Part shown: positions 22,336-31,660 of the stretch, piece by piece
Layout: every line of letters starts with the position of its first letter
Numbering within the stretch: the first letter of the stretch is position 1
Assembly (NCBI RefSeq): GCF_036323495.1
Contig: NZ_AP028947.1
Span: 868,001 to 932,000, forward strand
Direction of reading: 5' to 3'
Length of the DNA stretch: 64,000 nucleotides
Source of the DNA: Limnobacter thiooxidans
GTDB lineage: Bacteria; Pseudomonadota; Gammaproteobacteria; Burkholderiales; Burkholderiaceae_B
The notes under the pieces: model-generated
Database searches by the model: none
What the model was told of the DNA's origin: nothing
Seen by the model: the letters and a program-made list of their open reading frames with translations, nothing else
Made by a program: the position numbers and the translations under genes

Positions 22336-23867
<1,532 letters not shown>

Positions 23868-24025
23868 GAGAAAGAGAAGTAGATCAAGTCTTGAATGTGT
23901 CTGGTACTAGTGCTCACACTTATCGGTTTGTTTAAATATTAGATACAAGCAGCAAATGAGAGGGCCTTCAGTCGATGTGGTTAACGTTGACTAGAGGTCA
24001 GGGCCCTGGGGTTGAAAAGTTTTTA

Positions 24026-24102
24026 GGGTCTGTAGCTCAGTTGGTTAGAGCACCGTCTTGATAAGGCGGGGGTCGATGGTTCGAGCCCATCCAGACCCAC
24101 CA
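24026..24102 (+). tRNA. tRNA-Ile (GAT)
   Basis: 77 bases with acceptor GGGTCTG pairing CAGACCC, anticodon GAT in the CTTGATAAG loop, T-arm GGTTCGAGCCC and an encoded CCA end. It is the first tRNA of the 16S-23S spacer. Confidence 0.97.
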
Positions 24103-24132
24103 TTGATTTCAAATGGTAGTTAGAAAATACCT

Positions 24133-24208
24133 GGGGGTGTAGCTCAGCTGGGAGAGCACCTGCTTTGCAAGCAGGGGGTCATCGGTTCGATCCCGTTCAC
24201 CTCCACCA
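24133..24208 (+). tRNA. tRNA-Ala (TGC)
   Basis: 76 bases with acceptor GGGGGTG pairing CACCTCC (one G-U pair), anticodon TGC in CTTTGCAAG, T-arm CGGTTCGATCCCG and an encoded CCA. It is the second tRNA of the spacer, 30 bases after tRNA-Ile. Confidence 0.97.
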
Positions 24209-24331
24209 ATCTTTTGCTCTCAATGAAAGTTGAGTTTGTATCGAGTGTTTAAGTAAAGCGTCTTTAAGTAGATTGGCTGTTAATAAGTTGGCAAGTAAGC
24301 AATGCGCACAATGTTGCATTGCCCTTGCGGT

Positions 24332-24366
24332 CAAATGAATGAGCATATTGAATGTTTATTCATTTG
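24332..24366 (+). repeat. Inverted repeat in the tRNA-Ala to 23S spacer
   Basis: A perfect 9-bp inverted repeat (CAAATGAAT at 24332-24340, ATTCATTTG at 24358-24366). A second one, GCAATGC/GCATTGC, lies just upstream at 24299-24322. Both probably fold in the precursor rRNA. The 24209-24635 spacer contains these, a boxA and one arm of the 23S processing stem, but no gene. Confidence 0.5.
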
Positions 24367-24401
24367 GCTGTAAGAGTCGCCAAGCCCCTAGGGTTTGGAC
24401 T

Positions 24402-24413
24402 TGTTCTTTAACA
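24402..24413 (+). promoter_or_regulatory. Spacer boxA antitermination site
   Basis: TGTTCTTTAACA differs from the boxA consensus by one base and lies about 220 bases before 23S rRNA, the expected position for renewal of the antitermination complex. Confidence 0.75.
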
Positions 24414-24614
24414 ATTTGGAAATGATGAGATATCGAGATAGATACTCCTTTTAATTAAGGTGTACATATTTTGATTGATGCGATTGCATCATCGTTCTTC
24501 TCAAGAAGTTGATGTGCGTTGTTCCTAATGCATATCGGCGCTTGAATCTTAGAATACACACAAACTACTTTGCTTTTTATGGTGATTACAGTGTTGTTGA
24601 GAGTGAATAACTTG

Positions 24615-24635
24615 AAGCAGGGCTTAACGCTATAG

Positions 24636-24640
<5 letters not shown>
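24615..24640 (+). other. 5' arm of the 23S precursor processing stem
   Basis: This 26-base segment can pair with 27512-27537 at 25 of 26 positions (two of them G-U), bringing the ends of 23S rRNA together as a long RNase III-type substrate. It overlaps the first bases of mature 23S rRNA. Confidence 0.75.
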
Positions 24641-27511
<2,871 letters not shown>

Positions 27512-27518
<7 letters not shown>

Positions 27519-27537
27519 ATAGCATTGAGCCTTGCTT
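27512..27537 (+). other. 3' arm of the 23S precursor processing stem
   Basis: Pairs with 24615-24640. The following spacer (27538-27758) before 5S rRNA holds no gene that I can support. Confidence 0.7.
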
Positions 27538-27759
27538 AAAGATACGCACTTGAAACAACACACAGTAAATCTACCCAGGTTTAAAACCCTGAAATTAGTC
27601 AAGGTAGTTTGTAGTGAAAGACAGAAATACCCGCAATACGCATCAAGCCAGAATAGTCTCTAGACCGATAACTCATCAGATCCAAATCGAGCCAATCAGC
27701 CGCAATGCTGGTTAGCTAACAAGTACGTGCAGAGCACCGCACTTACAGCCAACCCTCTT

Positions 27760-27875
27760 TGCCTGACGACCATAGCAAGGTGGTACCACTCCTTCCCATC
27801 CCGAACAGGACAGTGAAACGCCTTAGCGCCGATGATAGTGTGCATTCGCATGTGAAAGTAGGACATCGTCAGGCT
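27760..27875 (+). rRNA. rrf: 5S ribosomal RNA
   Basis: About 116 bases from TGCCTGACGACCATAGCAAG to the complementary CATCGTCAGGC, with the conserved internal CATCCCGAACAGGACAGTGAAACG-type loop region split around 27800-27825. It is the last gene of the rrn operon. Confidence 0.96.
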
Positions 27876-27885
27876 CTCCAATTCA

Positions 27886-27973: not shown

Positions 27974-30900
27974 TTGGGTAATGTTGCCTTGGACCTTCAG
28001 CCACATCGGAATTTCTTTCAAAAAGTATTTGGTCAGATTTCAAGCGATCCTTTTTGTATCGCTGTTTCAGTTGGTGAGCAGCAATCCCGTGCGTCCTCAA
28101 GACACGTGCTGGCTAAGAATTTCGACGAATGCTGGCCTTTGGTGGTGGAGTTATCTCGTTCCCTGTGTTTGAGCAGCACTTCGGAAAATCTTCATGTCCG
28201 CCTGGATTGTTTGATTGATGTTCAGGAATACAGCTGGGCGCAATTCAAGAAAGAGCTGAGTAAAACCAAGCGTAACTATTTCCGCAGAGGTGTGGTTTTA
28301 GATCTGGATTTCGAATGCCTTTTTTTGGAAACAGAGTTAAACGCCAATGCGATGCTAATTGCGGGTAGTGACATTGAAACAGCCCAGTTGAATATTGGCA
28401 ACTTCAATCGGTATGCACGTCGTAAGTACGGACAGGCATTTGTATTGGACGATTCTGATCACAAACCTGTTTGGCTATTCAATACTGTCGGGGTTTATCT
28501 TGGGCCAGATGCCCTGGATCCCGTAAGGCTGCATCAGGATGGGCCCTTTGTTGGCAATCGCATCATTTCAGAACTTGATGTTGACAGCACCACACGGTTT
28601 GTAACCAAAGGGTCAGATTTTTTATCGAGGCAGGTCAATCAGAACGGTCGATTCGTCTACGGGTTGTTTCCTTGTTTTGATCGCGAAGTGAGTGGCTATA
28701 ACACTTTGCGTCACGCGAGTTCTACTTATGCCATGCTGGAAGCCTGGGAAGTAAGTAGAAGTCCAGAGCTGTTTAATTCGATCGAGCTCGCTCTGAACTA
28801 TTTGGTCAAGAATCTAATTCACGTGGTTAGTTTACCCAGCTTACCACCAGGCAACGAAATGGCGTTCCTTGTCGATACTGGCAATGAAGTTAAGTTGGGG
28901 GGCAATGCTGTTTGTGTATTGGCTTTGTGCAAATACACCGAGTTGACTGGAAACAGGCAGTACATGCAGTTGCTTGAGCGCCTGGCGCACGGTATGGCTG
29001 CAATGTTCAATACCAATACGGGTCAGTTTGTCCATGTCTTGAATTTTCCTGACCTTAGCGTCAAGGAAGTTTTCCGCATTATTTATTACGACGGTGAAGC
29101 AGCATTTGCGTTAATGCGCTTGTATCGTTTGACCCGAAAACCTGCTTATTTAGAACTGGTTGAACGTGCGTTTGAGTATTTTATTCATGCAAGGCACGAC
29201 CGTAGCCATGACCATTGGTTGAGTTATTGTGTCAACGAATTAACTGTATACAAGCCTCTGCGCAAGTACTTTGAGTTCGGCGTTCGGAATTTTCAGGATT
29301 ACCTTGATTTTGTTCTCGAACGAATCACTACCTTTCCAACTCTGCTTGAGTTGATGATGGCAGCCGAGCAGATGTTGCAGCGTATGAGAGATTTGCCTGA
29401 GCTTCAGGATTTGCTTGGAGAAGTGGATCTTGAGAAGTTTTATCGGGCATTGCATATCAGGGCAAATCGATTGATTGCTGGTCATTTTTGGCCAGAGTTG
29501 GCGATGTTTTTTGCCAATCCACAGCGAATAGAAGGGTCGTTTTTCATACGACATCAGGCATTCAGAGTGCGGATTGATGATGTAGAACACTACCTCTCAG
29601 GGTTGATCGCGTATCGAAAGTTTTTGCTCGAGCGAAAGCCTGTCCGTTTCCTGCCCCTCGAAGCGGAAACTTCTGCAGAACTCGTGCCACCTTCTTTTGG
29701 TTCGCAGCTTGATCCTAAGCCTCTGCCGATCAGAGCAGTGTCTTTGCCGGCTGCTTTGTCGGGTGAGGCGAATGGAGAGATACACCCGGAACTTCTCTTG
29801 CCTATTCGCGGTGGAAAACTGTTTTGGCGCGCTGCTGAATGCTGGAATCGGATGCGGACGGATGCCCTCCGAGTCGGGCTGATCCTGTTGCCAGTCAGTG
29901 ATGCCGACACGTATCGCACACTTGAAGTGCAGAAACGCTTGTTTTTCTCTCGTTTTGAGCCTTGTGGGGTAGAGGCAGCTTTATCCGTTCATTGGTCAGG
30001 ATGTCAGTGGAAGTTGAAATCTGGTCAATCGTTGACTGCTGTTCCGGGTAAGTCGATATATGGCTGGGGTATTGCAATCGATGTAATCCAAGACCAGGGT
30101 GGTCGAATAGTCGAGTGGCTAAGCAAACATGCGCACCGCTACGGATTTTGTTGGCATGAACAAGATAAGCCTTGGCGTTTAGTTTATTTCGCAGGTGATC
30201 ATGTCACTGAAATTTTGCCCGCCCTTGCTACCCCAGAGTCGGATTTCAAGACCTGGGATTCAGGTTTCATTTCGAGAGCTACGCCAGGCCATTGGATTCA
30301 GTCACCTGCGGAAAGTTGGTCAGCAACAGGTTTGTTCACGTGGGAAGGCTCCATGAAAGAGGGTCAGGTTGCTGTTGTGGCTGCTGACCCGAAGGAGCGG
30401 GGTATTCGCGTGGAAAGGCTGGCAAAATTGCCTTTTACACCGGCAGGTCTTGTTACTTCGATGTCGGATCAGGAGTTGGCCAGTTTTGCAGTGCCGACTG
30501 CCTTGCCTGTTTATCGTGTGTCTTCAAATCGTAGGGCTTTGATTGATTTGGCATATCTTGCACGCAGGCACTTCCGCGGCAAAGTGATTGGCGTTACAGG
30601 AACTGCTGGCAAGACAACGACTGTCGGTATGATCGCCCACGCTTTGACGCATCTATCTGGCGATGTTTTCAGTACCAAGGGCAACGCGAACTTACCGGCA
30701 GGTGTTGCGTGGAATCTTTGTCAAGTGCCTTGGAGCACACCTTACGCCGTGTTGGAATTGGCGATTGGCTCTATGGCCGAGAATACCCGTATGGCCCGAC
30801 CTGATGTGGCAGTGGTGACCAATATTGGGCCTTCCCACCTTGAGTTTCATGGTACGACTAGAAATGTGGCTCTCAAGAAGGCCAGGATTTTTACTGGGGT

Positions 30901-31660
30901 ACCAGATGGTGGCGCGGCCGTCATTTGTCTTGATACGGAGCACTCAGATCTGCTGGTCAAGGCGGCCCAAACTCAAGGACTCAGGGTGTTGACCTACGGA
31001 TTCAGTCAACAGGCGACTGTTTGGGTTGAAAGATGGGATCCTGTTGGCGGTGAATTGCTGCTGCACACACCGAAGGGTATGCACACTCTAAGATCAGGGT
31101 TGGAAGGGAAACACATGGTGTTGAATACGCTGGCCTGTGTGGCGGTTGGGTTGGCTTTGGAGTTGGATGTCGATGTGTTCCTTTCCGGTCTGAGCAATTT
31201 TTCCCCAGTCTCTGGAAGAGGAAAAGTGCATGACATTGCCTTTCACTCAAAGCAGATTAGTTTGATTGACGAGAGTTACAACGCCAACCCGGTTTCGATG
31301 CAAGCTTCAATTGAACTTGCTGGTCTTTTGTCTACGAAAAGTGCGGCGAAACGGAATGTGATGATTTTGGGCGACATGCTGGAGCTTGGAAATGATTCCG
31401 ATACCCTTCATCGTGCGCTTGAGAAGGTTTTGATTCAGCAGAAACCCGATTTGGTGGTGTTGTGTGGAAATTTGATCCGGGTTTTACAAGAACCTCTTCT
31501 GGCGGCAGGAATAGCGCATGTGGCTGTCTTTTCGAATGTTGAGGATTTGACCTTGGTGCTTGCCGAGTTGTTGCAGGATGGTGACCAAGTGTTGGTAAAA
31601 GGATCTCACGGTACAGGCTTGCACCGGCTGGTTTCGTTGTTGACCTCAAGTCTTGGGTAG
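27974..31660 (+). CDS. Multidomain MurF-type ligase fused to a toroid-like region and a degenerate VanY-like domain
   Basis: A 1228-residue protein. Residues 1-190 are not recognised. About 205-480 resemble an alpha/alpha-toroid (LGGNAVCVLALCKYTELTGN, YYDGEAAFALMRLYRL, HDHWLSYCVNEL). About 615-765 resemble an M15/VanY D,D-carboxypeptidase: YRTLEVQ (Arg648), then S694-I-Y-G-W-G-I-A-I-D703, where family members have SxHxxGxAxD, and KPWR (Arg735), where they have PWH. Two zinc ligands are thus replaced, so peptidase activity is unlikely. About 770-1228 are a complete MurF-like ligase with ATP loop GVTGTAGKTTT (Lys880), DESYNANPVSM (1099-1108) and GDQVLVKGSHGTG. MurF adds D-Ala-D-Ala to UDP-MurNAc-tripeptide. 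The start is uncertain: TTG 27974 is used because no in-frame ATG occurs for about 130 codons. It stands alone after the rrn operon. Confidence 0.8.
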   Translation: MGNVALDLQPHRNFFQKVFGQISSDPFCIAVSVGEQQSRASSRHVLAKNFDECWPLVVELSRSLCLSSTSENLHVRLDCLIDVQEYSWAQFKKELSKTKRNYFRRGVVLDLDFECLFLETELNANAMLIAGSDIETAQLNIGNFNRYARRKYGQAFVLDDSDHKPVWLFNTVGVYLGPDALDPVRLHQDGPFVGNRIISELDVDSTTRFVTKGSDFLSRQVNQNGRFVYGLFPCFDREVSGYNTLRHASSTYAMLEAWEVSRSPELFNSIELALNYLVKNLIHVVSLPSLPPGNEMAFLVDTGNEVKLGGNAVCVLALCKYTELTGNRQYMQLLERLAHGMAAMFNTNTGQFVHVLNFPDLSVKEVFRIIYYDGEAAFALMRLYRLTRKPAYLELVERAFEYFIHARHDRSHDHWLSYCVNELTVYKPLRKYFEFGVRNFQDYLDFVLERITTFPTLLELMMAAEQMLQRMRDLPELQDLLGEVDLEKFYRALHIRANRLIAGHFWPELAMFFANPQRIEGSFFIRHQAFRVRIDDVEHYLSGLIAYRKFLLERKPVRFLPLEAETSAELVPPSFGSQLDPKPLPIRAVSLPAALSGEANGEIHPELLLPIRGGKLFWRAAECWNRMRTDALRVGLILLPVSDADTYRTLEVQKRLFFSRFEPCGVEAALSVHWSGCQWKLKSGQSLTAVPGKSIYGWGIAIDVIQDQGGRIVEWLSKHAHRYGFCWHEQDKPWRLVYFAGDHVTEILPALATPESDFKTWDSGFISRATPGHWIQSPAESWSATGLFTWEGSMKEGQVAVVAADPKERGIRVERLAKLPFTPAGLVTSMSDQELASFAVPTALPVYRVSSNRRALIDLAYLARRHFRGKVIGVTGTAGKTTTVGMIAHALTHLSGDVFSTKGNANLPAGVAWNLCQVPWSTPYAVLELAIGSMAENTRMARPDVAVVTNIGPSHLEFHGTTRNVALKKARIFTGVPDGGAAVICLDTEHSDLLVKAAQTQGLRVLTYGFSQQATVWVERWDPVGGELLLHTPKGMHTLRSGLEGKHMVLNTLACVAVGLALELDVDVFLSGLSNFSPVSGRGKVHDIAFHSKQISLIDESYNANPVSMQASIELAGLLSTKSAAKRNVMILGDMLELGNDSDTLHRALEKVLIQQKPDLVVLCGNLIRVLQEPLLAAGIAHVAVFSNVEDLTLVLAELLQDGDQVLVKGSHGTGLHRLVSLLTSSLG

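Follow-up and report, generated by a model that had tools for sequence, protein, structure and literature searches.

The window analysed here, a stretch of 64,000 nucleotides from Limnobacter thiooxidans (contig NZ_AP028947.1 of assembly GCF_036323495.1, positions 868,001 to 932,000), contains a gene for a large protein in which a toroid-like domain, a VanY-like domain and a MurF-like ligase follow one another in a single chain (Table 1). Pfam models place Mur_ligase_M at residues 874-1058 (129.9 bits against a cut-off of 24) and Mur_ligase_C at 1093-1212 (49.2 against 28.4), and the VanY match reaches 35.4 bits against 25. The original prediction, made from the DNA letters alone, of a MurF-type ligase at the C-terminus with Lys880 inside the P-loop and the DESYNANP motif is thereby borne out. 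The nearest relative found (L009; handles beginning with L and G denote loci and genomes, respectively) has the same three-part order and is 72% identical in its best segment, which argues that the fusion is not a product of chance. Identity between the two proteins amounts to 75% in the N-terminal domain, 76% in the Mur module and 53% in the VanY region.

Table 1. Positions of the fusion gene, its parts and the adjoining operon, numbered from the first nucleotide of the window
Feature	Position	Strand	Remarks
Whole gene, toroid + VanY-like + MurF-like fusion	27974..31660	+	1228 residues; TTG start (start codon uncertain)
N-terminal toroid domain	28046..29683	+	About residues 25-570; homologous to a staphylococcal 538-residue protein beside Pls-like adhesins
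M15/VanY-like domain	29828..30157	+	Pfam match, residues 619-728; two zinc ligands replaced
Tyr696	30059..30061	+	Replaces the first zinc His; sequence SIYGWGIAID
Arg735	30176..30178	+	Replaces the last zinc His; PWR instead of PWH
MurF-like ligase module	30326..31642	+	About residues 785-1223; P-loop GTAGKTT (876-882) and DESYNANP (1099-1106) kept, TDSR absent
rRNA operon (16S, two tRNAs, 23S, 5S)	22342..27880	+	Directly upstream, context; read by eye, boundaries approximate

The ligase module shares with MurF the Mur ligase domains, the P-loop and the YNANP motif, but it lies outside the dcw cluster, its score with the NCBIfam murF model (TIGR01143) is 260 bits, under the cut-off of 288.6, and it lacks the TDSR motif, which sits on the UDP-MurNAc side of MurF and is present in the MurF of the same genome. 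The loss of TDSR and the score below the cut-off rule out a simple murF duplicate. The genome, a single 3.54 Mb contig, has eight matches to the Mur ligase M domain, the fusion included, and a separate normal murF at C1:525305-526411, about 370 kb from the fusion gene, which is thus an orphan from the dcw cluster, as had been proposed, in a genome that also carries an ordinary murF. A separate Mur match of the size of a cyanophycin synthetase, in an 873-residue frame, was observed in the same genome. Among 67 Mur modules scanned with patterns, 55 have the P-loop, 51 a YNANP-type motif (the pattern is broad enough to take in SWNAEV) and 47 both; TDSR, looked for near the start of the matched stretch with the genome's own MurF as the sole positive control, was found in none. 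MurF forms the bond that VanY breaks, and the presence of both domains in one protein is what speaks for an earlier, peptidoglycan-linked reading as a D-Ala-D-Ala sensing or salvage enzyme. With TDSR missing from all scanned modules, a normal murF present, and recognisable neighbours that are adhesin and secretion genes and not cell-wall genes, that reading is most improbable.

M15 peptidases such as VanY and VanX have an SxHxxGxAxD motif and a His-Asp-His zinc site. Alignment of the fusion to solved D,D-carboxypeptidases gives SIYGWGIAID for the former motif and PWR for the PWH site, so that the zinc triad reads Tyr696, Asp703 and Arg735. The predicted VanY-type domain without a zinc site was thereby corroborated, with Arg648, Ser694, Tyr696, Asp703 and Arg735 all at the positions claimed, and at the sequence level the middle region is related to M15 peptidases. 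Ser694, Asp703 and Arg648 are kept as in VanY and VanX, but in addition to the two changed zinc ligands a Lys replaces the Glu of the E-P-W-H sequence of another fused copy, L125; this Glu is the catalytic residue of such enzymes. L125 (genome G1027, from the family of G406) has a VanY domain fused to the same kind of ligase, with SKHGFGLAVD and EPWH intact and a score of 43.8 bits. In the VanY region of L009, the first His is kept and Asn replaces Asp, and its score of 24.1 bits is just below the cut-off of 25. The simplest reading of these sequences is a zinc-competent ancestor followed by decay in the genus of the window.

D,D-peptidase domains are joined to the toroid-Mur ligase in four places, namely M15 domains in the genus of the window and in L125, and S11 D,D-carboxypeptidase domains in L016 (146.9 bits) and L127 (70.7 bits). 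S11 enzymes are marked by the motifs SxxK, SxN and KTG, all of which are present in both S11 copies, and the D,D-peptidase motifs are thus intact in L125, L016 and L127. The pairing of MurF with VanY that had been emphasized in the original prediction does exist, but it is a local insert, seen in the window's own genome, in its L009 relative (genome G009) and in L125, and does not define the family. Two loci contain a further, diverged toroid, scoring 33 and 61 bits, which adjoins a separate VanY-Mur or Mur gene (L125, 15272-19160, minus strand; L118, 16715-19998, minus strand), and these copies apparently represent another subfamily.

As judged from homology, the N-terminal domain and not the VanY insert defines the family, whose conserved core is a toroid together with an exchangeable enzyme. 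The toroid label itself was retained as a likeness only, since it rests on sub-threshold matches: among 17 members, five match GH76, four GH88 and two LanC-like families, with E-values up to 1, and unrelated families match equally weakly, for instance CCM2_C in three of the 17. A comparison with solved structures gave a single match (E 0.095). The candidate assignment of the domain to a named family of lanthionine cyclases or glycosidases was rejected, as no match exceeded the cut-off. Toroid residues kept in at least 85 of 88 aligned rows include E121, R196, H354, E375, D413, H414, N439, E508, R531, D535 and D536, a pattern that also fits a catalytic role of the toroid itself.

The domain has staphylococcal relatives. 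It is 35.4% identical over 511 aligned positions to a 538-residue protein of S. haemolyticus, whose gene sits 3' of an adhesin gene labelled pls and 5' of a Mur ligase gene; on pWBG759 of S. aureus a 538-residue copy is likewise followed by a Mur ligase gene. In a plasmid collection searched by tblastn, the toroid is found in 54 records, 15 of them staphylococcal. GtfC, a protein of 538 residues encoded directly downstream of pls, is not predicted by CAZy to be a glycosyltransferase (PMC5230774). In the same study, gtfC and gtfD together yielded glycosylated Pls and gtfC alone yielded none, while gtfD alone gave weak glycosylation with the genes of strain COL and none with those of strain 1061; the (Ser-Asp)n repeats of Pls are thus fully glycosylated only with both GtfC and GtfD (PMC5230774). 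The toroid domain apparently corresponds to GtfC, a name taken from the length, position and annotation of the staphylococcal copies. The system thus resembles GtfC/GtfD and SdgA/SdgB in that its toroid family apparently includes GtfC, which acts together with a partner enzyme on the Asp-X dipeptide repeats in a surface adhesin, and in that the glycosyltransferase modules of its relatives are SdgB-like. It differs in that a Mur-type amide ligase takes the place of the glycosyltransferase, the repeat consists of Asp-Ala, the adhesins are Gram-negative ones with a BapA prefix or a retention module, and a single chain contains the fused modules.

The toroid was found alone or fused to a Mur ligase, to an SdgB-like glycosyltransferase, to PGA_cap, to a methyltransferase, to ATP-grasp and acylphosphatase domains, to a weak Fic match below the cut-off or, after Mur, to an S11 D,D-carboxypeptidase. 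The glycosyltransferase module of L026 matches the SdgB model with 206.7 bits over model positions 2-493 of 496, below the 800-bit cut-off of that model. When partners were mapped onto the toroid tree, the label (Mur, glycosyltransferase or none) switched at least 17 times, which indicates that the toroid does exchange partners, part of these changes being losses or unseen partners. Five near-identical toroids on short tree branches (L121-L125) carry wholly different C-terminal modules: ATP-grasp and acylphosphatase in L122 (5858-11218, minus strand), PGA_cap and two Mur modules in L121, and one Mur module in each of L123, L124 and L125. This suggests cassette exchange. On a plasmid-collection record of Acinetobacter (L098, 8779-12156, plus strand), the toroid gene lies between an upstream gene whose annotation names a type I secretion target domain and a downstream PGA_cap gene (152.1 bits) that bears no annotation.

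Toroid loci often hold an adhesin-like protein with long runs of Asp-Ala (DA) or Asp-Ser (DS) dipeptides. A search of 61 loci for repeats of period 2-6, which covered greedy longest open reading frames and at most five segments per locus, returned only Asp-X repeats, besides stretches of X and one out-of-frame reading of Asp-X. Where a DA or DS repeat was seen, it matches the enzyme: SdgB-like glycosyltransferases go with (Asp-Ser)n in eight of eight loci and Mur ligases with (Asp-Ala)n in 34 of 38. Among the 88 toroid rows, the combinations are Mur-DA 34, Mur-DS 4, glycosyltransferase-DS 8, glycosyltransferase-DA 0, Mur with mixed repeats 1, no partner with DA 6 and no partner with mixed repeats 1; no repeat was seen in the remainder (Mur 22, glycosyltransferase 2, no partner 10). 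Thirty modules with both the P-loop and a YNANP-type motif lie at loci where a DA or DS repeat was seen, and in every case the repeat is DA. Of the four Mur-DS cases, L014 is truncated by the end of its contig ahead of YNANP, both motifs are missing from L015, L105 is without the P-loop Lys, and L161 is without YNANP. Incomplete ligase motifs were also found at the DA loci L082, L097, L151, L158 and L160. With rows treated as independent, the association of partner and repeat gives a Fisher p of 1.9e-6. For this table, L113 (weak toroid), L114 (same place as L025) and L080 (cut, replaced by L035) were dropped, and L009, L011 and L026 are represented by L029, L085 and L086. L040, L159 and L160 were relabelled as Mur by hand, the distance rule having missed overlapping or broken neighbours, and L160, which would be Mur-DA, was left out of the tree and the Fisher table (toroid slice under 400 residues). 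Repeats were taken from unlinked loci of the same genome for the window row (L070, L072) and the G009 row (L084); those of the G006/C46 row come from L080.

The same correspondence is seen within the genus of the window. Of the 14 genomes with a related adhesin, all ten that have a toroid also have an Asp-X adhesin, and the four others (G003, G004, G014, G015) have none (Fisher p 0.001, with genomes counted as independent and kinship uncorrected). None of the ten retention-module reading frames found in these four genomes contains an Asp-X run, and other adhesin paralogues of the toroid genomes are likewise without runs; in G002 and G010, which are 85 and 65% complete, no adhesin match was found. 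Genomes with a Mur-type toroid (G000, G007, G009) have Asp-Ala, and those with a glycosyltransferase-type toroid (G001, G005, G008, G011, G012, G013) have Asp-Ser. G006 has both, with a Mur-type toroid beside the Asp-Ala adhesin and a glycosyltransferase-type toroid in the TamA-TamB locus of the Asp-Ser adhesin. The N-terminal module of the best-matching adhesin shares 84-91% identity with its G007 counterpart in ten genomes (61% in G004), while the repeat residue differs. The Asp-X run starts at residue 162-167, or at 217 and 188 in two reading frames with longer starts, and AGC and TCN codons for Ser are mixed inside one Asp-Ser run, which argues for selection on the protein. In the window's own genome (G000), homology identified two Asp-Ala adhesins, one at C1:412382-415075 and the other at C1:2465482-2467716; pure Asp-Ala units number 69 and 50 in the two proteins. 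NF033682 gave nothing above its cut-off in this genome (best 36.3 against 50 bits).

An Asp-Ala adhesin of this kind has been described in Paracoccus denitrificans, where BapA is type I secreted, contains 891 Asp-Ala repeats and is required for biofilm formation (PMC5588039). It migrates at more than 300 kDa for a predicted 212 kDa, a difference that its authors suggest may stem from composition, although they could not exclude modification (PMC5588039). Biofilm-associated proteins with SD or AD repeats have also been described in Acinetobacter (PMC4647330). Paracoccus was absent from the 54 plasmid-collection records that match a Sulfitobacter toroid; these are plasmid records only and do not cover the Paracoccus chromosome.

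On balance, we favour the view that the fusion works in the cytoplasm, where it would amidate the Asp side chains in the (Asp-Ala)n stalks of the cell's own adhesins before these are secreted. The domains, their co-occurrence with the repeats, the match of partner and repeat and the motif losses are observed directly; the acceptor, the donor, the compartment and the roles of toroid and VanY are inferred. The GtfC-like toroid would be the constant part, which recognises or presents the Asp-X repeat, and the partner would act on what X offers, the SdgB-like enzyme on the Ser hydroxyl and the ligase on the Asp carboxylate. The MurF-like ligase would activate carboxylates with ATP and couple an amine to them. 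The acceptor would be the Asp β-carboxylate, because Ala has no modifiable side-chain group. Type I secretion carries a protein from the cytoplasm straight outside, and modification would thus come before export; by eye, the N-terminus of P0001 shows no obvious signal peptide. In the window's own genome, the targets would be the two Asp-Ala adhesins. The guess in the original prediction of a non-peptidoglycan polymer as the target agrees with this view, the likely polymer being the adhesin stalk. A parallel is offered by cyanophycin synthetase CphA1, whose Mur-type M domain adds a unit (Arg) to the Asp side chains of a poly-Asp backbone while a separate domain holds the polymer loosely (PMC9262961). 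This M domain serves as a model for the proposed ligation, but the backbone here would be a ribosomal protein, and the fusion has no ATP-grasp match and scores 38.4 against 850 bits with cya_phycin_syn.

Two explanations compete with a ligase that modifies the repeat. The ligase might instead make a separate peptide or polymer, a capsule or metabolite exported with the adhesin, for which the repeat is not a substrate. In favour of this, the gene is unlinked to the adhesins, and nothing in the literature read shows directly that a Mur-type enzyme modifies an adhesin. It is nevertheless unlikely, as it leaves unexplained both the match between partner and repeat residue, seen within one genus at the same locus, and the toroid shared with GtfC-like proteins. 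A Mur module without catalytic activity, serving acidic repeats as a chaperone or binding domain, would suit the 12 of 67 modules without a P-loop match, some of which lie beside DA repeats, but the P-loop is kept in the other 55, the window copy included, and this explanation is very unlikely. Three related copies, L105 (13893-16976, plus strand), L151 (7661-10744, minus strand) and L158 (7588-10707, minus strand), keep DETYDANP and have GSGAGSS, GHGTGSS or GSGTGSS at the GKT site of the P-loop; they may be inactive ligases.

As for the donor, the most likely candidate, proposed tentatively, is D-Ala-D-Ala, MurF's own substrate. At the Variovorax soli copy (L018), a single gene separates the toroid-Mur gene from a ddl gene (190 bits), and this neighbour together with two unrelated families of fused D,D-peptidases suggests such a donor. 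By calculation, Paracoccus BapA would reach about 339 kDa if fully loaded with D-Ala-D-Ala and about 275 kDa with one D-Ala per Asp. The degenerate VanY domain would then probably be a non-catalytic holder of the dipeptide or the product, and the D,D-peptidase domains of relatives with intact motifs could trim the product. It is possible, if rather doubtful, that the ligase amidates the repeat Asp with another donor, such as glutamate, arginine, an amine or an amino sugar. PGA_cap belongs to poly-gamma-glutamate systems that use a Mur-type ligase, and four of the seven fused PGA_cap-Mur proteins (L104, L107, L150, L153) have DDSWNAEV instead of YNANP; the L122 toroid bears ATP-grasp domains instead of a Mur ligase, and the Mur-type domain of cyanophycin synthetase uses Arg (PMC9262961). 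Against another donor stand the two D,D-peptidase families fused to the ligase and the conservation of DESYNANP in the window module, as NDSYNANP is conserved in the genome's own MurF. A distinctly unlikely extension of D-Ala-D-Ala ligation is that the (Asp-Ala)n stalk mimics a peptidoglycan stem, with D-Ala-D-Ala on each Asp and transpeptidases tying the adhesin covalently to peptidoglycan. The repeat of the genus starts at about residue 165, directly behind an N-terminal module that might stay in the periplasm, where the N-terminal module of LapA stays, and the fused D,D-peptidase domains would set the number of reactive ends. If true, this would amount to sortase-free anchoring of surface proteins in Gram-negative cells.

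Several observations weigh against amidation of the stalk by the fusion, or against D-Ala-D-Ala as its donor. The Fisher p for all rows overstates the case, because the rows are not independent and only two independent swaps between glycosyltransferase and Mur with repeat data occur on the toroid tree; both agree with the proposed match (sign test p 0.5), and clustering at 55, 60, 70 and 80% identity gives Fisher p of 0.33, 0.09, 0.048 and 0.007. No Asp-X repeat lies in the fetched stretch for 34 of the 88 rows, many of which may be explained by adhesins beyond these stretches (mostly 10-20 kb), and six toroids with DA repeats have no Mur ligase within the distance rule. Four Mur loci have DS repeats (L014, L015, L105, L161), L151 and L158 combine DA repeats with the absence of the P-loop Lys, and both the P-loop and YNANP are missing from the Mur gene of S. 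haemolyticus. The toroid genes of G000 and G009 are not linked to the DA adhesins found in these genomes. GtfC was tried only with a glycosyltransferase, and gtfD alone was weakly active in one strain (PMC5230774). The apparent size of BapA proves nothing, since acidic proteins run slowly in gels. Concerning the donor, the ddl neighbour was seen only once, and the other partners of the toroid (ATP-grasp, PGA_cap, methyltransferase) suggest that the donor varies.

Asp-Ala adhesins are present in many of the surveyed loci, and Paracoccus BapA, from outside the survey, shows that such a protein can be required for biofilm formation. In the titles and abstract openings consulted, mainly open access, no link between a Mur ligase and adhesin repeats was found, and the literature consulted on Asp-Ala repeats, again mainly open access, names no enzyme for them. 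If the proposed function is correct, a ligase of the cell-wall type has been reused to decorate a ribosomal protein, as a peptide-style counterpart to the sugar coating of Ser-Asp repeat adhesins, and the modification of dipeptide-repeat adhesins would be a general system of cassettes, with the enzyme exchanged according to the residue in the repeat. GtfC, which CAZy does not recognise as a glycosyltransferase, would gain a testable role as a repeat-handling module.

With the centre genome counted, the toroid was found in three of 369 genomes in the class, four of 399 in the order and one of 125 in the family of G504, and in 36 of 250 and 10 of 299 genomes in richer surveys. Phage records gave eight toroid matches (four Listeria, two 'Bacteriophage' and two Acinetobacter), each over at least 80% of the query, and five of them are listed without annotation. 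In the window, the 3' neighbour on the opposite strand was named by eye as a look-alike of serine β-lactamase-type hydrolases. Near three toroids (L022, 8025-9817, plus strand; L015, 10805-12582, minus strand; L119, 14251-16019, minus strand), genes resembling aminotransferases and nucleotidyltransferases, also named by eye, recall those for aminoethylphosphonate or phosphocholine activation. An α/β-hydrolase-like gene lies beside the toroid-Mur genes of L101 (15326-16306), L121 (15565-16521), L018 (7707-8768), L038 (12066-13112) and L041 (12056-13102), as indicated by Pfam matches below the cut-off in L018, L101 and L121 and by annotation in L038 and L041.

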